A stretch of 44,400 nt of DNA from contig JAIPFP010000022.1 in NCBI GenBank assembly GCA_021736575.1, positions 1 through 44,400 on the forward strand. The letters run 5' to 3'. The stretch is from Pirellula sp. (GTDB lineage Bacteria; Planctomycetota; Planctomycetia; Pirellulales; Pirellulaceae). The notes under the pieces were generated by a model that did no database searches, was not told the DNA's origin, and saw only the letters and a list, made by a program, of their open reading frames with translations. Shown here piece by piece: positions 14,377-39,918 of this stretch (position 1 is its first letter; each line of letters begins with the position of its first letter). A program made the position numbers and the translations under genes.

Positions 14377-15471
14377 ATGCTCCAACGGATCAGCAAAAAT
14401 TCAAAGCGAATCGCTGCGATCCTTTCACAGTATCGCACACCTACTCAAATCGCATCCGGCGTGGCAATGGGCGTCGTTCTTGGAATAATCCCCAAGGATA
14501 ACATCGTATTTCTATCGCTCGTTGTGTTGATCACCTCGCTGCGAGTCAACCAACTCATAGGCTGGTTCGTAGCCTGTTCACTATGGTTTTTTAGTGGATG
14601 GTTCGAACCAATTTCCCATGTTTTGGGTTCGATGTTGCTCAGGCAATCAATCGTTGCAGCCACGGTTCAGCGGTTGTATGAATACCCTTTCCTCCCTTGG
14701 ACCTGCATTGACAACACGCTCGTTTGCGGCGGACTTGCGCTCGGGATAGCAAGCTTCCTGCCAACGTATTTGGCTTGTTGGTGGTCGCACATCCAAGCCA
14801 AGCATCAACTTGAGAGCCACGATTTGATTCAGATTGCAAACGATGCGAACCACTACAGAAAATCAATCCTAGACCAGTCTACTCTAAGGCGAGAAAGACC
14901 CACGCAAGCACTCAGGCTGGTTTTGAACGAAGATTTGGTTCACGCAGAGTCACAAGAGCCATCGGGGAGGCCTGTCGCTAAAGCCACATTGGCAACCGAT
15001 TTTAAACCCGTTGGTTCCGTCGTTCCTATTCAAGCAGATGCTTGTGTGTCCAACGACTCGACTTCGAAATTCAAGGTACAACCAAAGCAGAATGACGAAA
15101 TCGCCAAGTTGCATGGTAGCGACACGATCATGCGTGAAACCGTGATCGAAGTTGTGCGTTACCGACGTCCCGTTTCGGTCAACCGAGGCGAGAAACAAAG
15201 GACGAAAAGTCCAGATCCAAGTATTATTTCCCTAAACACAGGAACCACTATGGCTGTTGCAAACATGCCGCCAACACAATCCATCGACGGAAAAAATGGC
15301 AAAAGCGACCCATCGCCGAAACCGGTGAAGGGCCATATGGCCACTATAACTATTGACTCGGGACATTCGCACTTTTACCCAACCAACCGCGAAGAATCGC
15401 TCAAGTACCTCCTTTCTCACATCAATCATGCACGAGAATCGAACCGAAAACCTTCTGGGAAGTCGGCATGA
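14377..15471 (+). CDS. DUF2062-type / TIGR03546-like membrane protein
   Basis: TPTQIASGVAMGVVLGIIPKDNIVFLSLVVLITSLRVNQLIGWFVACSLWFFSGWFEPISHVLGSMLL; coupled (ATGA) to the next gene as in the TIGR03546/TIGR03545 pair. Confidence 0.75.
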   Translation: MLQRISKNSKRIAAILSQYRTPTQIASGVAMGVVLGIIPKDNIVFLSLVVLITSLRVNQLIGWFVACSLWFFSGWFEPISHVLGSMLLRQSIVAATVQRLYEYPFLPWTCIDNTLVCGGLALGIASFLPTYLACWWSHIQAKHQLESHDLIQIANDANHYRKSILDQSTLRRERPTQALRLVLNEDLVHAESQEPSGRPVAKATLATDFKPVGSVVPIQADACVSNDSTSKFKVQPKQNDEIAKLHGSDTIMRETVIEVVRYRRPVSVNRGEKQRTKSPDPSIISLNTGTTMAVANMPPTQSIDGKNGKSDPSPKPVKGHMATITIDSGHSHFYPTNREESLKYLLSHINHARESNRKPSGKSA

Positions 15472-17246
15472 AATTTCGGCGACAAGTTCTAGTTGCGACA
15501 ATCGTGTTGGGCTGCGGCTTTTGGTCGTTTCAGCTAATCGTGCGCAGGTGCATCGAAGCTCGGTTGTCCTCGCTATTTAACGCAACGGTCCATGTTGGCT
15601 CGTTCGAGATTTCGTTGTTAGACGGAGTGATCGCGTTTAACAACATCGAAGTCCATCCGAAGTTGACAATGCTTGATAGGGACGGCGTTTCGGCGAGTCA
15701 GCCAACCCTGATTCCCAAATCCGCCTTGAAGTTTGATTGGAATAGTGCGGCTTATCGCAACATAAAAATCGACAAACTTGTTGCTTCTGGGATGAAATGG
15801 CAAGTCAATGCGGCAACCGTGGATGACGTTCCATACGCCGAAAACTCAAACAACCAATCCAATTGGAAGCGTGATAGTAGCTCCGTCGTCAATACTAAGC
15901 TTGATACAGATTGCATCCATTCCATTGTCATGCCGATACATAGACGCATCGCGGAGGAAGCGGCCAATCAGAATCGGTTGCACGCTGACATTGCATCGCG
16001 GTTGACGTCCATCCGAGAGCGACTTGATGAAACGGTGCAGAACGAGAGCACACTTAATGTTCTTAGGCACAAGTCTGTCATTGACGATGTCAAGAAGGGG
16101 CTTTCCGCCGTTCGTCAATCCATTGCGGAGAATAGAATCAGTCGAAAAGAATCGGACAAACAGATTACCTTAATAAAGCAGTCTGCAACTCAGAGGCTTG
16201 CAGAGAAAATCGATAGCGTTATACAGCCAAACTCGATCGACGGCCGGCAAACGGCACGTCAAATTGCCGAATCGGTGGTTGCGATCGATTGGAACCGCAA
16301 CCGCACAATCGTTCACACCTTATTGAATGCAATCAACGTACTCCAATCGAACGAGTGTGATGAACCAAGTTCGGAACAAGCGAGCAATCGGGATTTAGAT
16401 TTCCATCCCCTCAGCAATGTTCCCATTCGTTTTACCCGTGTTGTATCGGCAAGGATTCGAGGCCAATCGCAATTCAGAATCGATGGTAGCGACGCTATGG
16501 TGTCCATCAACGACGCAGATTCGCCTGCGAGCTTCGAGTTGAATCTTCACAATTTGTCGAGCGAATCGACCACGCAAAACCCCAAACCGCACGTTAGTCT
16601 GACTTTGGAAGAATCTTCGACGATTGGTAAATCTCACAAAGTGGTTTGCGTTGCGGAGAGAATTGCTTTAGCTCAATCCGCTTCGAGCCAAGTTCAGATT
16701 TTACTTGAGCGATCGATTGGGGATTCACCAGCCAGCACAACCAAAATACAGCATGCAGAATTGGGGTGGTCAGCCACGGTCGCATTGCCTCTGATCGCTT
16801 GCCTGAATTCGAGTTACCTGGAGCCTGCAGAGTTGGCAAAGGCTCAGTTAAATTTGGGGGCCAATCAAGTCTTGAAGGCCAAGCTCATAGGAACAACACC
16901 AACGCCGAAGATGCAACGCCAAAACCTGTTGATCGAAATCGAACCCGAATGCCTTGCTCCACTTGAGTCAGTGCTAACTGCGATTGTGCAGACGCAATCG
17001 ACTAAGCTCCATTCCGAATTAAAAATCCTTGGAACGGAGCTAGTCAGCAATGAGTTGATTACGATTGGACAGCGATGGGACCAATTGGGAGACGAACACT
17101 CAAGAGCGCATACGGGTTGGGAAACGGACATGGCGGAGATGAACGAACGAGTTCAGCGGTTCGAATTGTTGAATAGACGTATTGCCCGTGATGTTGTCCT
17201 CCCGCCCGACGGGTCGAGCGTTAGCAACGGGGCGATGGCACGCTAG
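15468..17246 (+). CDS. TIGR03545-like / AsmA-like envelope protein
   Basis: One N-terminal TM segment, then RRCIEARLSSLFNATVHVGSFEISLLDGVIAFNNIEV (AsmA/TIGR03545-like start). Overlaps the upstream gene by 4 bp. Confidence 0.65.
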   Translation: MKFRRQVLVATIVLGCGFWSFQLIVRRCIEARLSSLFNATVHVGSFEISLLDGVIAFNNIEVHPKLTMLDRDGVSASQPTLIPKSALKFDWNSAAYRNIKIDKLVASGMKWQVNAATVDDVPYAENSNNQSNWKRDSSSVVNTKLDTDCIHSIVMPIHRRIAEEAANQNRLHADIASRLTSIRERLDETVQNESTLNVLRHKSVIDDVKKGLSAVRQSIAENRISRKESDKQITLIKQSATQRLAEKIDSVIQPNSIDGRQTARQIAESVVAIDWNRNRTIVHTLLNAINVLQSNECDEPSSEQASNRDLDFHPLSNVPIRFTRVVSARIRGQSQFRIDGSDAMVSINDADSPASFELNLHNLSSESTTQNPKPHVSLTLEESSTIGKSHKVVCVAERIALAQSASSQVQILLERSIGDSPASTTKIQHAELGWSATVALPLIACLNSSYLEPAELAKAQLNLGANQVLKAKLIGTTPTPKMQRQNLLIEIEPECLAPLESVLTAIVQTQSTKLHSELKILGTELVSNELITIGQRWDQLGDEHSRAHTGWETDMAEMNERVQRFELLNRRIARDVVLPPDGSSVSNGAMAR

Positions 17247-20578: not shown

Positions 20579-21105
20579 TGGCCCCTCGCGACACCGAAAT
20601 TGCCAAACCCATTCGACTCATTCTTTCCGATGTCGATGGTGTATTGACGGACGGGCAAATAACCATAGACAACGCCGGCGTCGAAAGCAAATCCTTCTAT
20701 GTGCGAGATGGACATGCGATCAAAATTTGGTGCAAAGCTGGTTTCCAATTTGGGCTATTGACCGCACGCAACTCACAAATCGTCAAACTGCGGGCTGCCG
20801 AACTTGGCATCACCATGGTTCGACAAGGTTTTGCAGAAAAGCTTCCTGCCGCTCGCGAAATGATTCAGCAAGCTGGCTTTGAAATGAACGAGGTGTGTTA
20901 CATTGGCGACGATTTGCCCGATCTCGCAGTGATGTACGAAGTTGGCTTAAGCGCGACCGTTGCGGACGGTGCAACCGAAGTCAAGCAAGCCGCTCGATGG
21001 ACCATGAACGCCCCAGGTGGGCGCGGAGCGGTCCGAGAGCTTATCGAACGGCTTCTCAAAGCAAAGGGTCGCTGGGAGGATTTCGTACCCAATCGAATGA
21101 CATAA
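20578..21105 (+). CDS. kdsC: 3-deoxy-D-manno-octulosonate 8-phosphate phosphatase (HAD IIIA)
   Basis: GTG start; IRLILSDVDGVLTDGQITIDNAGVESKSFYVRDGHAIKIWCKAGFQFGLLTARNSQIVKLRAAELGI...CYIGDDLPDLAVM. Confidence 0.93.
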   Translation: MAPRDTEIAKPIRLILSDVDGVLTDGQITIDNAGVESKSFYVRDGHAIKIWCKAGFQFGLLTARNSQIVKLRAAELGITMVRQGFAEKLPAAREMIQQAGFEMNEVCYIGDDLPDLAVMYEVGLSATVADGATEVKQAARWTMNAPGGRGAVRELIERLLKAKGRWEDFVPNRMT

Positions 21106-24100
21106 TGTTTCTACGTGACTATCTTAGAGCCTTATTGCCACTTGTGTTCGCCTTCACGGCATATCAAGTTCTTGCGGTTCCTTTCTTGGAACCGGCCAAG
21201 GTGACAAAGACGGTTCGGCACTGGAAGTCGCCAGCCATTCCGACCCGTGTGGATTGGTGGGAGGCGTTCTTTCTACCAGGCGATTGGCAGCGCAATACGC
21301 CGAAAATTGTAACCACGGACGATGCAATATTGCTTTTCCAGACGCGAACGCAAATATCCAAAACGCGTTGGCAATTCAAACCGTTGACAATTTTGATCCC
21401 GCAGCGCGAGGGAGCGAGTAAAAAGGCAATCTTAATCAACAATCCTAGCGGAGCTGAAATTGAATTCAAAACCGAAGTTGAATGGAGCAAGGAACTGCCT
21501 CCCGTAGAAAGCGGCCAGTTGCTCGGCGAGATCAGTATTTATTCGCCACCCGACGAAGTCTCCAAAAGAGACGGAATGCTCATTGAAACACGCGATGTTC
21601 GTATCAACAAGCGCCGCATCTGGACCGACCAATCGATCACGATGCAGCTTGGCAACTCGCGTATCGATGGCCAAAACCTCAACATTTATCTCGACAAAGA
21701 TCTGCTGTCTTCCGATCAACCCAATGCCAACAAAGAATCCCCTTTCAATGGCCTTAATTATCTCGAACTTTTTTATGTCGACCGCGTTCATATCGGGCTG
21801 AATCCTGGTGGGCTTTGGCCGAGCAAGGATATTCCAGACTCTCTATTGCGTCCCGCATATGCCACTTTGAAATGCAAAGGTACGTTTGAGTTTCAATTCC
21901 ATCAATCCGAGGCTATTTTGCGCAGAGATGTCCATATGGAACACCTCGTCCAAGGTCTCCCCATCGATACGTTTGATTGCGACGAATTGCGGCTACAAAT
22001 TGGTTGGGATCCAAAGCGAAATACTGCACCACCGACCGCCACTCCCCCGTCGAGCAAGTCGATTAGTTCATCGAACTGGAAAGTAGAACGAATCGTGGCT
22101 TTCGGCGCATCAGGACGAGATCTAAACGACCACTCGCGCTGGCTGAAATTGCTCGCGCCGGGAATGAAAGCCGAAGCTCAAGGGCAACACTTGGTCATCG
22201 ATATACTCAATGGATCGATTACACTCAACAACAAATTGCCCGGCACTGCTACCAGAGATTCGTCCAGAGTTTACTTGAAATACGATTCGATCCAAGTCTC
22301 GTGCCCAGAAGTTCAATACATTAACGCGGAAGCAATTGCTAATACGAACGAGGGGGCTGCCGCTCTCGGTGCCTCTTCGAAAAGCAATCGACTCGGCGTG
22401 GTGATTGCCTCCGGTGCCGGTTGGGGACAAATGGATAGTAAAGGTGAATCATGGAAGCTATCCTGGGGCAAAAGTCTTTACATTCGCCCCCAGGGTGACA
22501 AAGACCAAATGATCATCGAGGGTAGCGCCAATGTCAGCAACCCCTCGCAAGGTCGATTCACGGCCGAGCAGTTGCATCTATGGCTAACGCCAATGAATAA
22601 GGAACTGGCCTCGCAATTGGTTGCTCAATACCCCGACGGCAAAGTACCCCAGGCCTTGCCGGACCGAATGGAAGCCAAAGGAGACGTGGTTGTTGACTCA
22701 CCTCAATTGCGTGCTCGCGTCGAGAGTATGCAGGTTTGGTTTGCATATCCAACCACCGCCAAGCGACCAGATTCCAAAGTCAACTCTGCCCACGCAACCG
22801 GCTCACTTCCTCAAAACAATGCAAAAAACGCTTCAGTGAACAACTTGGCAACGGCAGCCCCATTCAATTTAGCTCCGTCCAAGGGATTACCACCGAGCCC
22901 ACTTCTACAACCTATTTATGCCGATTCCAGCATCGCACCCAAAAATCGATTGCCTGCGGTTCCCGCTTCACCTTTGAATGTCACCGCAAAAACCATGCGA
23001 GCAAGAGTTGTAAACTCAGGTGATCGAACTTTCGTCGACGATCTCAACCTCGAAGGAAATTTTATCCTGACAAAGGACCAGGTCTCCGATAGTTCTCCGT
23101 GGCCGTTTACTGCCACAGGGGATCGGCTGCTATTGAGCCAGAAGACGGAGAACGCGACCGACATCCACATTACTGGAGTGGCGGATCACGATGCCGAAAT
23201 CAAAATCGGCAGTGGACGCGTCGTTGCTCAAGAGTTACGACTGATGCAAAGCGAGAATCAGTTTTGGATCGATCATCCGGGTGAATTGGTGATTCCGGTC
23301 GAAGCGTTGCGAAATACGAGTCTGCAATCCCCCTCGTCGCTCGTTAGTTTGCCAAATGCCAGAGGGAGCGTTAACCCCACGCGGTCGATTGCGAAAAGCA
23401 CGGGTAATGATATTCGTTGGCGGGAGCCCCCTCGCTTGAGATGGGGAAAACGAATGACATTCGATGGCAAGTCCGCGAGGTTCGGCGGTGGAGTCACCAT
23501 TGACTGCAAAATTGAATCCGATGAAGCAACACTTTGGCACATTTCGGCCACTGCAGACCAAATGGTGGTTGATATGGACCAACCCGTTTCGCTGCTTGGT
23601 ACCGCTGCCCCTACGCCATCCGCTCAGGCTCAAGTCTCCGTGATTCGGCTCGATGGAAACGTCGATATCCGTGCCGTTCAGACCGACTATCAGCTGCGCC
23701 GTCGTTCCTTGGAACACATGAAACTGCCTCAGCTAGACTTTGACGTCCCCTCTCAGACATGGGTTGGCCACGGTCCCGGAGAGTTGTGGAGTAGACGCTT
23801 GGGCAACTCCAACCCGCTTTCAGGAACATTTCCAACCGCTCCAGCTCAAAACCGTTTTCCATCGAGTGCCATCGATAGTGATTTGCAGTGCATTCACTTA
23901 AGTTTCATCGGACGCATGCAGGGAGCTCTCGCGCAGCGAAACGCATCTTTCTTTGATCGCATCGAGGCATTGATTGGTCCGATTGTGGACTGGGACGACG
24001 AAGTTAACGTTCACAAACTCGATCGACTTGGCAAAAACCAAAGCCATCTCATTTCCGATCAATTGAATATCTTTGATGCATCCGGTTTGAGTTGGAACCA

Positions 24101-24533
24101 AAACCAGAACGCAAGTCGGGTTAAGCCACCAACCTCGTCATGGGAGATCGAAGCGCAAAGCAGGGTTGTCATGTCCTCCAATACCGACAACGGACAGATA
24201 ACCATCGAAGCCGATCGGCTAAGGTATTCTGCAGCAAACAACATGGTCGGTGTCGAACGCTCCCCGCGTCAATCCGCTGTGATTAGTCGAGTTCAAGCCA
24301 ATGGTGCAACGCCAGAGAAATTGGCGGTTAGCCACGCCGCCATGAACTTGAAGACGGGCGAGTTCGACATGACCATCAGTAAATTCGAGGGAAACCTACC
24401 CTTTAATATGCAACCCCCAGGGCAAGCGATGCCACAACGTCCAACAGTCGCCGCTCCTCCGCAACAACCCAGCAGCAACAGCAACTTGCTGCGGTCACCA
24501 CGCGACAACCCCCTGCAGCCCAGACGCCCGTAG
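21105..24533 (+). CDS. Very large (about 1140 aa) membrane-anchored protein, candidate LptC/LptA (OstA)-like
   Basis: TAATG coupling to kdsC; MFLRDYLRALLPLVFAFTAYQVLAVPFL anchor; repeated beta-strand-like units (DRMEAKGDVVVDSPQLRARVESMQVWF; GQITIEADRLRYSAANNMV; KIGSGRVVAQELRLMQSENQFWIDHPGELVIP). Family assignment is from synteny plus pattern. Confidence 0.6.
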   Translation: MFLRDYLRALLPLVFAFTAYQVLAVPFLEPAKVTKTVRHWKSPAIPTRVDWWEAFFLPGDWQRNTPKIVTTDDAILLFQTRTQISKTRWQFKPLTILIPQREGASKKAILINNPSGAEIEFKTEVEWSKELPPVESGQLLGEISIYSPPDEVSKRDGMLIETRDVRINKRRIWTDQSITMQLGNSRIDGQNLNIYLDKDLLSSDQPNANKESPFNGLNYLELFYVDRVHIGLNPGGLWPSKDIPDSLLRPAYATLKCKGTFEFQFHQSEAILRRDVHMEHLVQGLPIDTFDCDELRLQIGWDPKRNTAPPTATPPSSKSISSSNWKVERIVAFGASGRDLNDHSRWLKLLAPGMKAEAQGQHLVIDILNGSITLNNKLPGTATRDSSRVYLKYDSIQVSCPEVQYINAEAIANTNEGAAALGASSKSNRLGVVIASGAGWGQMDSKGESWKLSWGKSLYIRPQGDKDQMIIEGSANVSNPSQGRFTAEQLHLWLTPMNKELASQLVAQYPDGKVPQALPDRMEAKGDVVVDSPQLRARVESMQVWFAYPTTAKRPDSKVNSAHATGSLPQNNAKNASVNNLATAAPFNLAPSKGLPPSPLLQPIYADSSIAPKNRLPAVPASPLNVTAKTMRARVVNSGDRTFVDDLNLEGNFILTKDQVSDSSPWPFTATGDRLLLSQKTENATDIHITGVADHDAEIKIGSGRVVAQELRLMQSENQFWIDHPGELVIPVEALRNTSLQSPSSLVSLPNARGSVNPTRSIAKSTGNDIRWREPPRLRWGKRMTFDGKSARFGGGVTIDCKIESDEATLWHISATADQMVVDMDQPVSLLGTAAPTPSAQAQVSVIRLDGNVDIRAVQTDYQLRRRSLEHMKLPQLDFDVPSQTWVGHGPGELWSRRLGNSNPLSGTFPTAPAQNRFPSSAIDSDLQCIHLSFIGRMQGALAQRNASFFDRIEALIGPIVDWDDEVNVHKLDRLGKNQSHLISDQLNIFDASGLSWNQNQNASRVKPPTSSWEIEAQSRVVMSSNTDNGQITIEADRLRYSAANNMVGVERSPRQSAVISRVQANGATPEKLAVSHAAMNLKTGEFDMTISKFEGNLPFNMQPPGQAMPQRPTVAAPPQQPSSNSNLLRSPRDNPLQPRRP

Positions 24534-29826: not shown

Positions 29827-31017
29827 CTACATTCGAACGTCCATGATCGAAAAGTCGTCGTCCAGCCCATTATTGCCCTTCAGCATTCTAACGTGTTGTA
29901 TCAGTCGATCCATCTTGTTTTGATCCTCGTTGTCTGGCTGCGACATGAACTGGATGAACTCTCGAAACGTCCAAGTCTCTCCGTCCTGTTTGTGAACTTC
30001 GAATGCCCCGTCACTATAGACGAAAATCCGAGAATTCTCAGGAACGATGATCTCCTTCTGCTCAAATGAGTCCCACTCAAACATGCCAACTCCAGGATTG
30101 AGTGACTCCAGCTCGGTCGGGGCTATCTGCCCTGGTCTAAATAGCAATGCAGAGGGGTGGCCGCCCGCACACCAGACCAGTCGACGTGTCTTCATCTCGT
30201 AAACGCCGTACCACATGGTGAACGTTCTACCATCTTGTTCATCCATCTTGAAGGTATTGTTCAACGAAGTTAGCACTTGACTTGGAACGGCAAAATCGGT
30301 GTTGGGCAACGCTCGGGCTCGCAGTACATTCGATACGGCGACCCCAAGTAACGCCGACGCAAGCCCGTGCCCAGTCACATCCAACAGGAAGATCGCAAAG
30401 CGATCCTCCTCTAGCGGAAAGTACCCTAGAGAGTCACCACCCAACTCAGCGCTGGGAACAAACCGCCAATCGATCGTGATCGGCTCCGTGATCGGCGCAG
30501 GGATAAGAGACGCAACGTACTTCGCGCCCGTCTCCATTTCATTGGCCATGCGTTGCTCGCTTGCGACCAGTTTTTCAAACATTTCGTTGCGTTCAAGCAA
30601 GTTGATATAAGCGCGCGAATGGTAGCGGATCCGAGCGATCAATTCCAAACGGTCCGGCAATTTAACGAGATAATCGTTTGCCCCAAGCCCAAAGGCCTCC
30701 GACTTGGTTTTGGCATCTTCGGTCGACGAGAGAACGACAATGGGAGTGTCTTTGGTGGCAGAATGTGCCCTGAAGAATTTGACGAGCGTCAATCCATCCA
30801 CTTCAGGCATTACAAGATCTTGCAATATTACGGTCGGCCTCAACACTGCGGCCATTTCGATCGATTCAAATGGATTTCGGCAGTAGTGCAGATCGATGTC
30901 TGTTTGATCGGCCAACATTCGCTTAATCGCTTCGCCAACAATGGCTTGATCGTCAACCAATAAAACGACGATTCCCAATGGCCTTGTTTCAGGTTGCGAA
31001 TTTGCCAAACCGCCCAT
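29827..31017 (-). CDS. Response regulator with REC and SpoIIE/RsbU-type PP2C phosphatase domain
   Basis: VVLLVDDQAIVGEAIKRML...VILQDLVMPEVDGL...PIVVLSSTED...LVKLPDR; then PAELGGDSLGYF..FLLDVTGHGLASALLGVAV...VWCAGGHPSALL...IFVYSDGAFE. Confidence 0.93.
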   Translation of the reverse strand: MGGLANSQPETRPLGIVVLLVDDQAIVGEAIKRMLADQTDIDLHYCRNPFESIEMAAVLRPTVILQDLVMPEVDGLTLVKFFRAHSATKDTPIVVLSSTEDAKTKSEAFGLGANDYLVKLPDRLELIARIRYHSRAYINLLERNEMFEKLVASEQRMANEMETGAKYVASLIPAPITEPITIDWRFVPSAELGGDSLGYFPLEEDRFAIFLLDVTGHGLASALLGVAVSNVLRARALPNTDFAVPSQVLTSLNNTFKMDEQDGRTFTMWYGVYEMKTRRLVWCAGGHPSALLFRPGQIAPTELESLNPGVGMFEWDSFEQKEIIVPENSRIFVYSDGAFEVHKQDGETWTFREFIQFMSQPDNEDQNKMDRLIQHVRMLKGNNGLDDDFSIMDVRM

Positions 31018-31210
31018 CCTTTGATTCCTCGATGCTTGCCTGGGATATCACCCTTGATCGCTTTAATCGATTCAATACGCCTCCCGTTCGTGCCATTTGC
31101 TCTAGAACGTCGGTTCGTTTGCTGCATTTGCTCGCTTGCATGTTGAATCGCGAGGAGTCCAGTCTAGACTAAGATGCTTGGTTTTCCATTCGAAAATAGA
31201 GGATTCGTGA

Positions 31211-32071
31211 ATGAGTTACGACCCAAACGAAATGATGCTCGACTTATTCCGCGCCGAGGTCGAATCGCATTCGGATTCACTCACGGACTCGCTCCTCAAA
31301 CTTGAACAAGATCCGACGGCAACGAGTTTGTTGGAAGGGTTGATGCGCGCGGCTCATTCGATCAAAGGTGCGGCTCGAATCGTTCGGGTCGATCCTGCCG
31401 CAGAGGTCGCACACGTGATGGAAGACTGCTTCGTCGCCGCCCAACGAGGCGAATTGGTGCTCGAACCCGCAGGGATTGATGTCCTCCTGCGTTCCGTAGA
31501 TCTACTCTCTCAGGTTTCCGAAGCTTCTAAAAATCCCAACGTCGATTGGGCTGACTTTATCCCTGTCGTCCATGCCACCGTCGGCCAACTTCGAAGCGTA
31601 CTCAACCGACAACCTCTCCCTGTCGAAGCGTTAGACGCGTCGAGTTCGACTACCGTCGAGCCGCGTACTTTGGAGCCGAAAGCAATCGAACCGCAAGCAA
31701 TCGAACCGCAAGCAATCGAGCCGAAAGCTGCCGAGCCGAAAACCGTAGCTGTTCGCGAGGAAGAATTCTTCCAGGCAACGGCACTTGCGACTGGTCAAAC
31801 GAATCGCATTTCCATACCGACGTTCTTAAACGTTCACAACGCGGACTCGATTCGACTCGAAATACTCGCGAAATTGCAATACAAACCGCAGCACGTCGAG
31901 GTGATTCTCGATTTGTCGCAAACCCAAGATCTCGATGCGGTTGGTCTTGCGCTCTTACATTCTGCAATCCAATTCGCGAAAAATACAAACCGTACCATCG
32001 CGTTTGAAAATGTTTCGTCCGACTTACGACCCGCACTCCATGCAATCGGCGTCACGAGCAAGGACGCTTAG
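31211..32071 (+). CDS. Hpt-linker-STAS protein
   Basis: LMRAAHSIKGAARIVRVDPAAEVAHVMED (Hpt) - EPKAIEPQAIEPQAIEPKAAEPK linker - ISIPTFLNVHNADSIRLEILAKLQYKPQHVEVILDLSQTQDLDAVGLALLHSAIQFAKNTNRTIAFENVSSDLRPALHAIGV (STAS-like). Confidence 0.82.
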   Translation: MSYDPNEMMLDLFRAEVESHSDSLTDSLLKLEQDPTATSLLEGLMRAAHSIKGAARIVRVDPAAEVAHVMEDCFVAAQRGELVLEPAGIDVLLRSVDLLSQVSEASKNPNVDWADFIPVVHATVGQLRSVLNRQPLPVEALDASSSTTVEPRTLEPKAIEPQAIEPQAIEPKAAEPKTVAVREEEFFQATALATGQTNRISIPTFLNVHNADSIRLEILAKLQYKPQHVEVILDLSQTQDLDAVGLALLHSAIQFAKNTNRTIAFENVSSDLRPALHAIGVTSKDA

Positions 32072-32072
32072 T

Positions 32073-35000
32073 ATGGTAAATACTCCCCATGCAGACTTTG
32101 TGCTGGAATCCCGCGAACATCTTCAACTATTGGAACGCTCGATGCTTGCGCTTGAAAAAGCGACAAGCCCTGAGGCGAGAAACGCTTGCATTGACTCAAG
32201 TCTACGCGCCGTTCATTCGCTGAAAGGGAACGCCGGGTTTCTCGGTTTCCAATCGGTCCAACGGCTCGCGCATGCAACGGAGAGCGTTCTCGAAAACTTT
32301 CGCAATCACGTCCATTCCCCGCCCATCGCGGTTGTCGAGGCCATATTGTTGGCCAGCGATCGGCTCTCCTCCATGATTGAGGACCTTGGATTTAGCGAGT
32401 CGCACGATATCTCGGAACTGATAAAGACATTGCACGCGTTGGCCGTGGATACGAGCGATCCCGTTCAGAATGCACCGAAGAACGTGATTCCAATCAACCT
32501 GCGCATGCCCTCACCGCCGGCATCTGTAGTACCACTTCTGGATTCCATTCGAACGCTTGGTTCTCTTCGTGAATCGCAATTAACCCAAGTTGATCTTCAA
32601 ACACCCACTGCAAACTGGTCCGTTGCGGAACTGCGTCTTCAAGGGCGATTGCATACCGACCGATCGGTTATTGAAGTGCAACGGCATTTATCGCAAACTG
32701 GGGCCGCGGTTCCGTGGCGTGACCTAGGAGCCAATGAGATAAGCGGGCTCAATGCCCAGCAACTCCTACAGCATTTAGCCGCTGTCCAAGGTGAACTGGT
32801 ATATGAACCGACACGCTTGGATCTTGGTTTGCCAGTTCAGCCCATCGTTTGGAACCAAGCGGTAAGCGATTTGCCAATCCAGCCAATCGTCAAAGTAACG
32901 CCAATCGTCCATGTAACGCCAATCGTCCATGTAACAGGGTCGCCTACAAACCACCCCGAAAACATTCAGCCCAAACCCATTCAACAAGTCGACGAAACCG
33001 TCGCCACCACACCACCAGTAAAAACGTCATCGAATGAACTCGTGATCCATCAAGAGCCAATCGCCTCTGAGGATCGAAAGGAAATTGTGAGCAAGCCAAC
33101 AGGCGATGCTGCTACAAATTCCTCACCGACCGAAAAAACGACAAGTCTGCGCATTCCAGTGGATCTGCTTGATCGTTTGATGAACCTCGTTGGCGAGTTA
33201 ACGCTTATTCGGAATCAATCTCTGCTAGCCTTCGAGGAAATCGAGGGTACGTCCCGAGCCGTTATCCAGCGTCTCAACTCCGTCACGACCGAACTGCAAG
33301 ATGCCGTTCTAAAAACGCGCATGCAACCCGTCGGACATCTGTTTGGTCGATTTCCTCGGATGGTACGTGACTTGGCGAGGCAACTTGGCAAACAAGTCGA
33401 ACTCGTCATGGTTGGTCAAGAAGTCGAGTTGGACAAGACGGTGCTAGAGCAACTCTCGGACCCCCTGATCCATTTGATTCGAAATAGCATCGACCATGGT
33501 CTGGAAACTCCTGAGGTGCGAATCCGGTCTGATAAACCGAGTGTTGGCCGCGTAACCCTGTCTGCTACGGCAGCCGATGGCCAAGTCATTATCGAAATCC
33601 GCGACGACGGTCGCGGCATTGACCCAAACGCAGTTCGCGCTAAGGTATTGGCTCTCGGCCTGAAGACGGAGGCCGAGCTTCAAAAAATATCGAGCAAGGA
33701 GCTCTACTCTTATATCCTTCTTCCAGGCTTCTCGACGGCAAGGCAAGTCAGTGATGTTTCAGGCAGAGGCGTCGGCATGGATGTCGTGAAGACCAACGTC
33801 GAACGATTGGAAGGCTCCTTGACGATCGACTCAGCGCCCGGAATGGGGACGTCGATGATTTTAAGGGTTCCCCTCACATTGGCAATCATACCCTGTTTGA
33901 TTGTAACGGTCGGGAAAGAACGTTTCGCGGTTCCACAGCGTGGTCTTGAAGAGATCGTGTGCCTGCATCCAGGCGGTGAAAGTTTTATCGAACACTCGTA
34001 CGATTCTGAATTGCTTCGGTTGCGCGATGTGCTCTTGCCGGTCGTCCGATTCAGCGAAGCTCTCCGGTGCAAGTCGACGTTTTGTGCGGAGACCAAGTTG
34101 GCGATCCTCGCCGCAAACTCTCCTGCCGATCGAGATCCTCAGCGTATCGAGTATATTTTGGTCCTGCGAACCAAGGGGCGCAAATTCGGATTGCTGGTGG
34201 ACGATGTTCGAGGCACCGAAGAGGTCGTTGTGAAACCGATGCACCCATCGCTCAGAAAAATTGGTATCTTTGCGGGCGCTACCTTGATGGGGGATGGTCG
34301 TGTTGCGTTGATTGCAAATATCGATGGAATTGCCGAACATGCGGATTGTTATGGCGTAGAGCCTCCACAAAGTTCCGGAATATTGAATCGAGACCCCGCT
34401 GAAGTGCATCGCGTTTTGCTCTTTGAGTTTGGTCCGAAAGAACTGTTCGCTTTGCCATTGGTACAGGTGCGACGCATTGAATCGATCGCCATGAATCAAG
34501 TTGAGTACATTGGCGATCAGGCCTTCATCACGATCGATGGAGTGTCAACTCGCATCATTCGACTAGACAAGTTTCTCAATGTTTCGACGTGCGAGCAATC
34601 TCCGATGATGCATTTGCTATTGCCAAAGTTCGTGAAGGAACCGGTGGGGATTCTTGTTTCCCGAATCGTAGATACAGAATCACTATCCATTCAAATGCAG
34701 GAAGCTTCCATCGAAGATCCAGGTATCCTTGGTACAGCTATCGTTCGAGAGCGGTTGACGTTGTTCTTGGACATTCAGTACTTGCGAGAAGGAATCTTCG
34801 GGCGGGCGAGAGCATTGAGCACTTCCCAGTCTCGAGAAGTGGGCCTGGTGAGCTCGCCGCAGGTGAAAGCAACGCTCGATGTTGTTCCGCACATACTACT
34901 TGTCGACGACACACCCTTCTTTCGAGAAGTGGTTCGACGGTATTTCGAACGAGACGGATTCGTCGTAACAACCGCGATCGACGGCAACGATGGAATGCGA

Positions 35001-35267
35001 AAACTAGCAGAAGGTGACTTTGATTTAGTGGTTTCCGATATTGAAATGCCCAACTTAGATGGCTGGGGATTCTGCCAGGCTGCTCGCAAGGCCGGATACA
35101 AAACACCGTTTATGGCCCTCACATCGCTGTCCAAAACCGAGAACTCCGCCAGAGCAATCGAATGTGGTTTTGACGGTTTCGAGGAGAAGCTCGACCACGA
35201 TCGACTCATCCATTCGGTCCGCAAGATGTTGGGATTGATCGCCGAGGAGCAGCAAGATGGAAACTGA
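32073..35267 (+). CDS. cheA: Hybrid chemotaxis histidine kinase CheA (Hpt, dimerisation/HATPase, two CheW-like domains, REC)
   Basis: LRAVHSLKGNAGFLGFQSV; LMNLVGELTLIRNQ; LIHLIRNSIDHGLETPE; DDGRGID; GRGVGMDVVKTNVERLEGSL; two CheW-like segments; VPHILLVDDTPFFREVVRRYFERDGF...VVSDIEMPNLDGW. Confidence 0.95.
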   Translation: MVNTPHADFVLESREHLQLLERSMLALEKATSPEARNACIDSSLRAVHSLKGNAGFLGFQSVQRLAHATESVLENFRNHVHSPPIAVVEAILLASDRLSSMIEDLGFSESHDISELIKTLHALAVDTSDPVQNAPKNVIPINLRMPSPPASVVPLLDSIRTLGSLRESQLTQVDLQTPTANWSVAELRLQGRLHTDRSVIEVQRHLSQTGAAVPWRDLGANEISGLNAQQLLQHLAAVQGELVYEPTRLDLGLPVQPIVWNQAVSDLPIQPIVKVTPIVHVTPIVHVTGSPTNHPENIQPKPIQQVDETVATTPPVKTSSNELVIHQEPIASEDRKEIVSKPTGDAATNSSPTEKTTSLRIPVDLLDRLMNLVGELTLIRNQSLLAFEEIEGTSRAVIQRLNSVTTELQDAVLKTRMQPVGHLFGRFPRMVRDLARQLGKQVELVMVGQEVELDKTVLEQLSDPLIHLIRNSIDHGLETPEVRIRSDKPSVGRVTLSATAADGQVIIEIRDDGRGIDPNAVRAKVLALGLKTEAELQKISSKELYSYILLPGFSTARQVSDVSGRGVGMDVVKTNVERLEGSLTIDSAPGMGTSMILRVPLTLAIIPCLIVTVGKERFAVPQRGLEEIVCLHPGGESFIEHSYDSELLRLRDVLLPVVRFSEALRCKSTFCAETKLAILAANSPADRDPQRIEYILVLRTKGRKFGLLVDDVRGTEEVVVKPMHPSLRKIGIFAGATLMGDGRVALIANIDGIAEHADCYGVEPPQSSGILNRDPAEVHRVLLFEFGPKELFALPLVQVRRIESIAMNQVEYIGDQAFITIDGVSTRIIRLDKFLNVSTCEQSPMMHLLLPKFVKEPVGILVSRIVDTESLSIQMQEASIEDPGILGTAIVRERLTLFLDIQYLREGIFGRARALSTSQSREVGLVSSPQVKATLDVVPHILLVDDTPFFREVVRRYFERDGFVVTTAIDGNDGMRKLAEGDFDLVVSDIEMPNLDGWGFCQAARKAGYKTPFMALTSLSKTENSARAIECGFDGFEEKLDHDRLIHSVRKMLGLIAEEQQDGN

Positions 35268-35727
35268 ATCCGTAAAGTATTGCACATTCGAAGCGGCAGG
35301 GCGATTATTCGGTGTTCCCTTGATCGACATTAAGGAAATCACGGCTGAGACGAACTACACTTGCATACCACACGCCCCCGAGTGCGTAAGCGGATATGTC
35401 AACATCCGAGGCAACATCATCCTAGGACTGGACCTAAAACAAATTCTCGCCTTGCCGGCCAAAGAAGAAGACGTGTCGAAGCGGATGGTGATCTTCAAGT
35501 CCACCGTTGGCCCTGCCTTTGGGTTACTGGTCGACGAAATAGGCGAAATCGTATCGGTTTCAAGCCAGGATATCACTTCAGACTCGACGAGCATTGGCTC
35601 GGAACTGCAAGGCCTGAGCGGACTAGTTCAAAATATCTGTCGACTTCCAAATCAATTGTTAGTTGTACTCAATCCGCGAAAATTTCTACCCATCATTGAA
35701 AAAGAACTTTACCAACCCAGTCGGTAG
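35257..35727 (+). CDS. cheW: Chemotaxis adaptor CheW
   Basis: VKYCTFEAAGRLFGVPLIDIKEITAETNYTCIPHAPECVSGYVNIRGNIILGLDLKQIL; overlaps cheA by 11 bp. Confidence 0.95.
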   Translation: METESVKYCTFEAAGRLFGVPLIDIKEITAETNYTCIPHAPECVSGYVNIRGNIILGLDLKQILALPAKEEDVSKRMVIFKSTVGPAFGLLVDEIGEIVSVSSQDITSDSTSIGSELQGLSGLVQNICRLPNQLLVVLNPRKFLPIIEKELYQPSR

Positions 35728-35733
35728 TCCATC

Positions 35734-37953
35734 ATGAAAAATTTAAAACTCAGTATCAAGCTCATTCTCCTTTCGCTTGTTCTGTCGAGCTTTTTGCTTG
35801 TAACGGGTTGGGTTGGTTGGTCACGGCTATCGCTTCTTGATAGCAACACGGACAAGCTTGCGAAGAAAGTATTTTCACAAGTGATTGCGGCGGCAGATAT
35901 CCGATCGCAATTATACGCGATGATTCGCCATCAGAAAAATGCGGTCCTCACGAACGATGATGACAAGTCCAAGGAATTCGCATTGAAGAGCGAATTAGCC
36001 TCAGTCGAGCTTATCGACCTAGTCCAGCGATTTGAAGGACAGGTCGAAGCGAGCAATCTGACGTTGAAGGCAAAAACGCTCAAGGACACTGTCGAGAAGT
36101 TGAACAAGCTAAACTCAGAATGCCTCAGCTTCGCCAAAATGAATAGCACGGTGAAAGCGAACACGATCCTGACAAAAAAGATCGGCCCCTCTTTGGAGAA
36201 GATTGGCCAGATTGCGATTCAGTCCACATCGGCAACTCCGTTGCCATTAGAAGGGAGCGTGAATACTTCATTACGCCCAGACGAGCTACTAAGAAGTGCT
36301 CAACTCGCGTTCAACGCTTTGGTCCTGCATGTTTCGACACCATCATTGGATCCTGCTTTTGCCGCGATTGACCGATCGACTCGTGTCAAGGTCGATGGCT
36401 TTTTTGAACTCCTCAATGCATATAAAGATCCAACAAAAACCGTTGAAGTGGAAATGAAGAACATCTCTATGGGTCTGCGTACCGATATCGATGAATTCCT
36501 AACTTTTTCCGCAGTGGACTCCAACGGCAAGTCGACGAAACTGTCGCTCGAGGACTCAAAGGAAGCGATCGATAACACACTCAAGATTCTCGATGAAATA
36601 ACCACACTTGCTCGAGGCGAAGCGGATGCCGCGGTCAAGGCCAGCGCGGCGATCTATGCGGACAGTTCTCGCGTTCTTTTGGGAACGTCTCTTATTGGAC
36701 TGGTACTCGGGTGCCTTGCGTCCTTTTTTGTATCGCGTTCAATAACAGCCCCAGTCTCACTTGTCCGAAATCTTGCCCAAGATATGGCGAAAGGCAATTT
36801 GATGTCTCGCATCAATCTCAAGCAGAGCGATGAGGTTGGCGAATTGGCAACGGCGACCGATTCCTTAGCGGACTCGTTGTCGGAAATCGTTGGACGTATT
36901 CAGAACGCATCCACGGATCTGAGCGGTTCATCGATTGGACTCGAAGGAATTGCAACGTCTCTAGTCAAACAAAGTGAGCAAACTTCGGCCCGTGCAGATA
37001 GCGTTTCGGCTGCTTCGGAGCAGTTGTCGGCGAACATACACACGATGAGTTCTGCCGCTGAGGAAATGAGCATGAATTTTGCCTCGATTTCTTCGGCCAC
37101 GGAAGAAATGAGTGTTTCGGTTGGTTCGATTTCGTCCGCAGCGGAACAAACATCGAACAACGTCGGTGCTGTCACCACCGCTATTCACGATATCTCGATC
37201 TCGTTTGAACAAGTGCTCAGCAACGTTCGGGATGGATCTCGCGTGGCGAACAATGCCAGTCAAATGGCTAACTCGGCAACGTCAACCATGAAGCACCTCG
37301 ACCAATCGAGCACGGAGATCAGCAAAGTCACCGAGACGATCAAGATGATCGCGTTGCAAACCAATCTGCTAGCGCTCAATGCAACGATCGAAGCGACTTC
37401 GGCAGGCGAGGCCGGTAAAGGGTTTGCTGTGGTCGCTCATGAGATCAAGCAATTGGCGAACCAGAGCGCCAAGGCAGCCGAGGACATCGCCACCAAGATC
37501 GAGGGCGTTCAGACAGGAACTCGGCAGGCCGTCGGAGTCATTCAAGAAATCGCGGCTGTCATTAAAGAGATTAACGCCTCCGCAGATCGTATCTCGAATT
37601 CGGTCGAGGAGCAAAACCGAGCAGCCCAAACGATTTCGCAGAACATTGCTCAAGCCAACAGCGGCGTAGGGCAAATTGCTCGCTCGATTTCGGAGGTAGC
37701 AGCGACGGCCAACGACATGGCGAGAAACATTGCAGAAGCAACCCGCGGTGCAACGGATGTTTCACGAAATGTCGGCGAAGCGGCCAAGGCAGCCAGCGAT
37801 ATTTCGGATAGCATAGGCCAAGTGAGCAAAGCAGCCCTAGAAACGAATCGTTCGTCCGAGAACGTTACAGTTGCATCGGAAACATTGGCTCAATTGTCCC
37901 ACGATTTGCAAAAACTTGCTTCACGATTCAAAATACCCACCAATGACGCATGA
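35734..37953 (+). CDS. Methyl-accepting chemotaxis protein (TM, helical sensor, HAMP, signalling domain)
   Basis: N-terminal TM, second [75 protein letters not shown] hairpin tip. Confidence 0.97.
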
Positions 37954-39031
37954 GCCGATACGGATATTAATCGTCGATGATTCCAGGATCTTTCGCGGAA
38001 TTTTGGAGTCCGCGTTTGCGGAAATCCCAAATGTCGTGATCGCTGGATCGGTCTTTAGCGGCGAGAAAGCCATCGAGTTTCTAAAGCAGACGCCAGTCGA
38101 TTTGGCGACTCTCGATATCGAAATGCCTGGCATCGACGGTCTTGAGACACTAAAAGCCATCCGCGATTTGAATCGGTCTCGACCGAACGCACTTCAAACC
38201 GAGTCGGTCTTAATCAGCTCGCTGACAAAGCAAGGGGCGCGATGCACAGTGGAGTGCCTGCAATTAGGTGCCATCGATTTTATTCTCAAGCCGAGCGGTG
38301 GTACTGAGTCCGCAAACAAATCGCAGCTTGTCAGAGCGCTCATTGAAAAGCTTGCCATTTATCGACAAAAACGATTCAGCAAAAACGAGCCACCGCCAAC
38401 CTTTCCATCCGTTCCCGCCAGACCATGTCATTCCAATCGAGCCGAAAATTATCAGGCGATTGCGATTGGTATCTCCACGGGCGGACCGGAGACCCTTGCA
38501 AAGTTGCTACCGGAACTGGCAGGCCGAACCCTCGCACCTATCTTTATCGTGCAGCACAACTTAAACGGTTTGAGCCGATATATGGCGGAAAGCCTTGGTC
38601 GCCGGATCGGTTATCAAGTTGCGGAGGCACAAGAAGGAATGCCCGTGTTGCCGGGCGGAATTTATCTCGCTCAAAGTGGCAGTCACATGATCCTGCGAAG
38701 GGCAGGAAGTCAAATAACGATCGGATTGAGCGATGCACCACCCGAGAATCATTCTCGTCCGGCAGTTGATGTATTCCTGCGGTCAGCCGTTTCGATTTAC
38801 GGGTCGTCGCTAATTACAGCCATCATGACGGGCATGCTCAACGATGGTGCGAATGGAGTTCGCGCTGTCAAGAGGGCTGGTGGTTTCGTGATTGCCCAGG
38901 ACCAAGCCACGAGTGTCGTCTGGGGAATGCCGCGAGCCGCGATTGAAACTGGGGCTGTCGATTTGGTGCTGCCGCTCGATAAGATTGCGCCAACGTTTCT
39001 TTCCCTCGTGGAAGGAACATTCGGCAAATGA
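37943..39031 (+). CDS. cheB: Chemotaxis response regulator protein-glutamate methylesterase
   Basis: [20 protein letters not shown]...[74 protein letters not shown]-type motif. Confidence 0.95.
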
Positions 39032-39918
39032 ATATCAGCGAACCGGAGTTTAACAACATCCGCCACTTGGTGAAACGTCTCTGTGGGATATGGCTTACCG
39101 ACGACAAAAAGTACCTCGTTGTATCGAGACTTGCCTCGGTGTTGAAAAGAAACCAGATTGAATCCTATTCAGCACTCGTCCAACGAGCATCGTCGGCAAA
39201 CAACATCCGATTGCATGAAGAGATCATCGAAGCAATTACGACGCATGAAACGTCGTTCAACCGAGATGGTCATCCATTCGAAGAGTTTCGTCGAACCATC
39301 CTGCCGAATTTGATTGCCACTCGAGCGGAGTGTCAACGTGTCGCAGGCCTACCGTTTGGAAAAATACGAATCTGGTCCGCTGCGGTTTCCACCGGTCAAG
39401 AAGCATACAGTTTGGCAATGGGTATTTTGGAACACATTCAGACGCAGCCCCGCAATTCCGCCAACGGATTTGTGGTGACTCCCGAGAATTTTTCCATTTT
39501 GGGAACCGACATTTGTGCGTCGTCTCTCAGTACTGCCAAGGAAGGTTGCTATTACGAACGAGACTTAGAGCGTGGACTCGGAAATGATTTACGGAAAAAG
39601 TACTTTGTAGAACGGGAGCGTAAGTTTTGGATCCATCAAGCCGCCAAGAACTTGATTGATTTTAGAAGATTGAATTTGATTCAACCCTTCGGTGATTTGG
39701 TCGGTATGGACTTGGTGCTTTGCCGAAACGTGCTCATCTATTTTGACGATGCGACAAGACGAGCGGTCACGGAACAGCTCACCATGTGTTTAGCCCCAGG
39801 CGGAATGTTGATGTTGGGGGCTGCAGAAAGCATCCCTGTTTTGCCGCCGGGAATCGTGCAAGAACAGTTTGGGCGAACGGTCGTTTTCCGAAAGTCGGCC
39901 GCCAAGCAGGTGGGGTAA
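39028..39918 (+). CDS. cheR: Chemotaxis protein methyltransferase
   Basis: EIIEAITTHETSFNRDGHPFEEFRRTILPNL; IRIWSAAVSTGQEAYSLAMGI; LVLCRNVLIYFDDATRRAV; ATGA overlap with cheB. Confidence 0.95.
   Translation: MNISEPEFNNIRHLVKRLCGIWLTDDKKYLVVSRLASVLKRNQIESYSALVQRASSANNIRLHEEIIEAITTHETSFNRDGHPFEEFRRTILPNLIATRAECQRVAGLPFGKIRIWSAAVSTGQEAYSLAMGILEHIQTQPRNSANGFVVTPENFSILGTDICASSLSTAKEGCYYERDLERGLGNDLRKKYFVERERKFWIHQAAKNLIDFRRLNLIQPFGDLVGMDLVLCRNVLIYFDDATRRAVTEQLTMCLAPGGMLMLGAAESIPVLPPGIVQEQFGRTVVFRKSAAKQVG

Follow-up and report, generated by a model that had tools for sequence, protein, structure and literature searches.

The Wsp system is the textbook example of a surface-sensing chemosensory array with a cyclic di-GMP output, and it belongs to the alternative cellular function (ACF) class. 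Its output protein, WspR, consists of a receiver (REC) domain joined to a GGDEF diguanylate cyclase domain. Receivers are joined to PP2C phosphatases in two tested circuits of one and the same logic. In the RsbK-RsbM-RsbY pathway of Bacillus cereus, a methylation-tuned kinase phosphorylates the REC-PP2C protein RsbY, and RsbY in turn dephosphorylates RsbV, which releases sigma-B (PMC4574943), and in the HptB-HsbR-HsbA pathway of Pseudomonas aeruginosa the signal passes from an Hpt protein to a REC-PP2C protein and on to a STAS protein (PMC5085249). Here we describe a cluster of chemosensory (che) genes and a divergently transcribed REC-PP2C gene from Pirellula sp. (GenBank assembly GCA_021736575.1). 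The window, which is the whole stretch of 44,400 nucleotides that was analyzed, is a complete contig (C268); the genome, about 95% complete, measures 6.2 Mb in 353 contigs. The window system is a conserved chemosensory array with a WspR-receiver phosphatase output; by its CheA and gene order it is not a Wsp system, nor is it a switch that operates through the STAS protein of the cluster.

Judged from its sequence, the receiver of the REC-PP2C is a WspR receiver, joined to a SpoIIE/PP2C domain in place of GGDEF. Its closest PDB matches are WspR entries 3i5a (2.5e-50, 173 bits) and 3bre (1e-49, 171 bits), followed by PleD (6.5e-14, 55 bits). It is 55-62% identical to the receivers of plasmid-encoded REC-GGDEF WspR proteins of Cupriavidus, Burkholderia, Azoarcus and Novosphingobium, a likeness that stops past residue 157. 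In an alignment of ten orthologs the receiver residues D22, D23, D67 and K119 are invariant, as are the acidic residues of the PP2C domain (GGD195, D213, SD336G and D387/D388). Residues D195, D213, D336 and D387/D388 are presumably the ligands of the PP2C metal site, as in other members of the family. Pfam finds no domain other than REC and SpoIIE in the 396-residue protein, a kinase domain included. A REC-PP2C 98% identical to it is encoded at locus L064, in a planctomycete metagenome-assembled genome labelled Pirellula staleyi.

The organization of the REC-PP2C gene and the array is as follows.

29827..31017, minus strand: REC-PP2C, 396 residues; WspR-type receiver (residues 16-150) and SpoIIE-family PP2C (204-395); Pfam Response_reg 4e-19, SpoIIE 4e-38
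31018..31210, no strand: divergent intergenic region between the REC-PP2C gene and the che array, 193 bp; read in the sequence
31211..32071, plus strand: Hpt-STAS, 286 residues; Hpt with His motif AHSIKGAA, STAS without acceptor Ser (LDAVGL); Pfam Hpt 5e-14, STAS 3e-8
32073..35267, plus strand: CheA, 1064 residues, ATG at 32073; Hpt, dimerisation, HATPase, CheW, CheW and REC domains in that order; Pfam
35257..35727, plus strand: CheW; Pfam CheW 1e-22
35734..37953, plus strand: membrane chemoreceptor (MCP); 4HB_MCP, HAMP and MCPsignal; Pfam
37943..39031, plus strand: CheB; REC and methylesterase; Pfam, ATG at 37943 picked from the translation of the open reading frame
39028..39918, plus strand: CheR; Pfam CheR 4e-43, CheR_N 6e-12

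Pfam agrees with the original prediction on the position and domain order of all seven genes, and the 193-bp gap between the divergent REC-PP2C gene and the array can be read in the sequence. The array had been described as tightly packed with overlaps of 4-11 bp. It is indeed tight, with overlaps at cheA/cheW (11 bp), MCP/cheB (11 bp) and cheB/cheR (4 bp), but Hpt-STAS and cheA are separated by 1 bp and cheW and the MCP gene by 6 bp. A promoter scan returned a number of sites not above that in shuffled sequences.

Several features set the window apart from Wsp. The Wsp operon has the order MCP-CheW-CheR-CheW-CheA-CheB-output, whereas in the window the order is A-W-MCP-B-R with a divergent output. 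The window has one stand-alone CheW, Pfam detects no TPR in its CheR, and its output domain is PP2C rather than a GGDEF diguanylate cyclase. What the two share is the WspR receiver, and in the wsp-order operons of relatives the REC-PP2C fills the wspR slot after CheB. The CheA of the window also lies outside the WspE-type clade: the six CheA proteins of clusters of the window type (type A, see below) form a clade (SH-aLRT 95) outside 58 Wsp-locus CheA proteins (SH-aLRT 100), which include three WspE proteins from REC-GGDEF operons. The CheA tree and the gene order thus rule out that the window cluster is a bona fide Wsp system.

Linkage of the REC-PP2C gene to che genes is conserved, as a survey of 119 genomes of the same family, the window genome included, demonstrates. 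Close full-length orthologs (51-55% identity) occur in nine other genomes of the family; eight share a contig with cheA, and the ninth (G042), at a contig end, with cheB. Two arrangements were found. Type A comprises the window, L044, L045 and L047, together with L064 and L091 from named genomes, and has the REC-PP2C gene divergent from cheA-cheW-MCP, which is followed by cheB and cheR in those loci that extend further. Type B (L046 and L048-L053) has the wsp operon order MCP-cheW-cheR-cheW-cheA-cheB, and its REC-PP2C gene either follows cheB or is transcribed divergently to the MCP gene; the full order including the output is found in L046, L051 and L052. In a search of the family with the core of the window CheA, identity is 61-62% in three other genomes and then steps down to 55% or less. 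CheA proteins at least 60% identical to that of the window therefore occur in 4 of the 119 genomes (its own included), and the REC-PP2C gene is divergent in all four. The original prediction held that it would be refuted if the REC-PP2C gene were not syntenic with the cluster elsewhere; that objection fails because all three genomes with the closest CheA have the divergent gene, and the synteny is kept in 6/6 clusters with a window-type CheA. Three other loci of the family, L054, L055 and L056 (G043, G114 and G090), encode a PP2C protein 50-51% identical to that of the window which lacks a WspR receiver. A weak RsbW-like open reading frame (133 residues) lies near this gene in L054 and L056, and a weak STAS-like one (303 residues) is found in L054-L056.

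The receiver-PP2C fusion extends well beyond the family. A scan of named genomes with the ten-ortholog alignment gave 557 relatives, from which 80 loci were kept. Most of these have wsp-type genes around the REC-PP2C gene; the rest are at contig ends or have no che gene nearby. The loci with wsp genes belong to the Planctomycetota, Thermodesulfobacteriota, Verrucomicrobiota, Lentisphaerota, Acidobacteriota, Elusimicrobiota, Pseudomonadota, Chlamydiota, Chloroflexota and Cyanobacteriota, and in many phyla, and in many of the loci L064-L143, the REC-PP2C gene occupies the wspR slot of MCP-W-R-W-A-B operons. Since a query that contains PP2C is biased toward PP2C, two phyla were also searched with the receiver only. 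The planctomycete search, of 392 genomes, found 23 WspR-type receivers in 20 of them; 19 of these receivers are fused to PP2C, none to GGDEF, 3 to GAF-HD and 1 to a hybrid histidine kinase. The other search used the P. aeruginosa WspR receiver as the query against 297 genomes from the Desulfoferrobacter phylum and found 21 receivers in 19 genomes (13 PP2C, 6 GGDEF and 2 others, one of them a nucleotide cyclase). Nearly all of the receivers from both searches are encoded directly after CheB. Given these several fused outputs, the WspR receiver is, by sequence comparison, a plug with several outputs, of which PP2C is the commonest in both samples. The other outputs seen on WspR-type receivers include the hybrid histidine kinase of L175, GAF-HD or HD-GYP-like domains (L184-L186) and, at L198, an adenylate/guanylate cyclase encoded in tandem with a REC-PP2C.

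Phosphatases have been noted in chemosensory clusters before, so the kind of system is known in outline. A 2012 survey of CheR-TPR/ACF clusters tabulates 'Ser/Thr phosphatase family 2C' among REC-fused domains; the category appears in a figure and a table, and no mention of a WspR-receiver origin, RsbW/STAS neighbours or Hpt-STAS was found (PMC3447774). In stage-1 F7 clusters of gamma-proteobacteria the che cluster contains a serine phosphatase along with anti-sigma factor antagonists, but their gene set differs from that of the window and includes CheY and CheD, and a phosphatase with a WspR-type REC was not found in the description of them (PMC7184735). No description of a WspR receiver fused to PP2C was found in the open-licence literature, nor was this REC-PP2C variant or its breadth described in the searchable literature. 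The gene name wspR has been used for planctomycete genomes in two reports (PMC6461901, PMC9119077); this naming may reflect the receiver and nothing more, since none of the WspR-type receivers in the 392 planctomycete genomes is fused to GGDEF.

The genes adjacent to REC-PP2C in other phyla point to its target. A profile seeded from the RsbW of the window genome and six neighbours previously noticed in the loci finds, in 7 of 76 loci (L068, L076, L092, L102, L112, L119 and L136), an RsbW-type kinase gene at most 1.5 kb from REC-PP2C; the seven loci represent five phylum-level groups. Several of the seven kinase genes are no more than 26 bp away. The background rate, from a count of about 60 kinases encoded by small frames over 174 Mb, is about 0.34/Mb, so only about 0.07 would be expected in 76 loci. 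As L092 and L102 are related to one another, and likewise L112 and L119, there are at least five independent cases. At L068, L076 and L136 both the kinase gene and a gene for a STAS protein with the acceptor Ser lie beside REC-PP2C, and in Desulfoferrobacter suflitae the REC-PP2C, RsbW and STAS genes are adjacent. A STAS gene lies 13 bp downstream of REC-PP2C at L072, and an RsbW-type kinase is encoded directly upstream of the MCP gene at L121 and L133. In a planctomycete (L187:7500-9427), one strand carries the genes for REC-PP2C, a canonical STAS protein and RsbW in succession, and there is no wsp gene within 19 kb; here the phosphatase seems to move together with its switch but without an array. 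Because RsbW and STAS genes recur beside REC-PP2C, these arrangements support partner switching as the output of the WspR-receiver REC-PP2C class.

For the window itself, the REC-PP2C is supported as the output of the cluster, pointing to a partner-switching target, on the basis of the conserved linkage, the identity of the receiver and the adjacency to RsbW and STAS genes. The original prediction that signals pass from the MCP through CheA and the REC-PP2C to partner switching is supported by the same evidence, save for the route through the STAS protein of the cluster. We consider it fairly probable that a non-Wsp array with a WspR-receiver PP2C output acts on a canonical STAS/RsbW switch. 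Of the parts of an RsbU/RsbV/RsbW switch, the cluster has a SpoIIE-family PP2C with intact metal-site residues but lacks a STAS protein with the acceptor Ser, and the window encodes no RsbW-type kinase. Candidates for both parts occur on C167 (L008:4623-5449), where the gene for a canonical STAS protein with the Ser adjoins that for a HATPase_c_2 protein, the one clear RsbW-type kinase of the genome; this pair is the likelier target of the REC-PP2C than is the STAS protein of the cluster. No phosphatase or sigma factor gene is next to the C167 pair, and the genome was not searched for a client.

In the mechanism that we infer, the MCP, CheW and CheA-W-W-REC would form a non-Wsp array subject to adaptation by CheB and CheR, and array activity would lead to autophosphorylation of CheA. 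The phosphate would pass to Asp67 of the receiver, either directly or by way of the detached Hpt domain of Hpt-STAS. Phosphorylation would then alter assembly of the receiver as in WspR, turning on a phosphatase rather than a diguanylate cyclase. The phosphatase would remove phosphate from a canonical STAS protein of the anti-anti-sigma type, which could then capture the RsbW-type kinase and free its client, the C167 pair being the candidate. The tested circuits differ from such a scheme in their components. RsbY receives its signal from a hybrid histidine kinase that has its own methyltransferase rather than from an MCP/CheA array, and HsbR has kinase activity as well, whereas the window REC-PP2C has no kinase domain.

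Several observations weigh against this mechanism. RsbW and canonical STAS genes are absent from the window, and nothing in the position of the C167 pair ties it to the cluster. RsbW matches occur in 116 of the 119 family genomes, and since they are near-universal the co-occurrence of the C167 pair is uninformative. Other SpoIIE-type phosphatases of the genome, including an FHA-GAF-PP2C protein on C102, could serve that pair, and biochemical data for any member of the REC-PP2C class were not found. PP2C phosphatases in general have other known targets, and in 69 of the 76 loci there is no RsbW within 1.5 kb of REC-PP2C. The phosphatase might therefore act on Ser/Thr-phosphorylated proteins outside a STAS switch, such as substrates of Hanks-type kinases or the array receptors. 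We regard this as improbable given that RsbW/STAS adjacency recurs in unrelated lineages far over expectation and that a planctomycete has the REC-PP2C, STAS and RsbW genes in a row.

In the original prediction the substrate of the REC-PP2C was the STAS domain of the neighbouring Hpt-STAS, which would partner with a regulator of a sigma factor. The two genes are adjacent, an arrangement kept in L064 and L091, and the STAS domain is recognized by Pfam (3e-8), but this route is contradicted by the acceptor residue. The acceptor of SpoIIAA is Ser58, and at the aligned position the three Hpt-STAS proteins (window, L064 and L091) all have Ala, whereas each of the eight partner-type STAS proteins compared, that of C167 among them, has Ser; one SpoIIAA entry in the PDB has Ala there. 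HsbA likewise has an acceptor, Ser56, which Hpt-STAS lacks. In addition, the sister clusters L044, L045 and L047 retain REC-PP2C without any STAS protein and have a CheA with two Hpt domains. The cluster STAS has weak matches only in the PDB, with MlaB among the nearest. On the grounds of the Ala in the acceptor column and the absence of STAS from the sister clusters, the cluster STAS is rejected as the substrate, and we put the chance of such a circuit as low. Lacking the usual Ser, the STAS domain cannot be phosphorylated there and probably has a role in docking or in constitutive binding. The Hpt of Hpt-STAS matches the first Hpt of the sister-cluster CheA proteins; Hpt-STAS therefore looks like a first Hpt domain of CheA that became detached and either acquired or retained a STAS domain that cannot be phosphorylated. 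Least probable of all is that the PP2C domain is inert and works as an adaptor like the pseudophosphatase domain of E. coli RssB, which the full-length REC-PP2C profile matches in the PDB, given that the acidic residues assigned to the metal site from family knowledge are invariant in 10/10 orthologs.

The absence of a stand-alone CheY and of flagellar genes, proposed from the window, holds there but not for the genome, which encodes FlhA on C310 (E 2e-239) and a CheY in a second che operon on C195 (L006:5925-15224). This operon has the order cheW-MCP-cheR-cheA-cheX-like-cheD-cheY-cheB followed by a REC-PP2C gene, the receiver of which is ordinary rather than WspR-type; the gene in the cheX/cheC-like position has no Pfam match. 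The arrangement is kept in L188, L189, L190 and L192 (5/5 looked at). Elsewhere in the window, two large open reading frames at 20895-24533 (1212 residues) and 15468-17246 (592 residues) have no Pfam match.

A single origin of the type A REC-PP2C proteins is rejected (approximately unbiased test, p 0.0017) although their CheA proteins form a clade, and therefore the WspR-type REC-PP2C was joined to, or swapped in, the non-Wsp array more than once. In quick trees, GGDEF-type WspR and the WspE that goes with it branch from within the PP2C-bearing sequences, with very long outgroups, a PP2C-rich sample and few columns; a single clade of the 12 GGDEF sequences is not rejected (p 0.89). No direction of change between PP2C and GGDEF is claimed because rooting and sampling are insufficient. 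A bolder proposal, possible but one we lean against, is that the WspR receiver can be exchanged like a plug between effectors, of which a PP2C for partner switching is the main one and possibly the first, with GGDEF-type WspR as one derived clade, and that planctomycetes coupled two unrelated arrays, that of the window and the CheD/CheX/CheY operon, to such phosphatases.

PP2C is the output of 32 of the 44 WspR-type receivers from the receiver-only searches of the two phyla pooled. Since the receiver more often drives a Ser-phosphatase, gene catalogues that list a 'WspR' for planctomycetes and comparable groups may imply the wrong output. The sensing of surfaces or chemicals by these bacteria may feed into transcription, or into another target under partner switching, instead of cyclic di-GMP, and Desulfoferrobacter suflitae, a named strain, makes this wiring directly testable.

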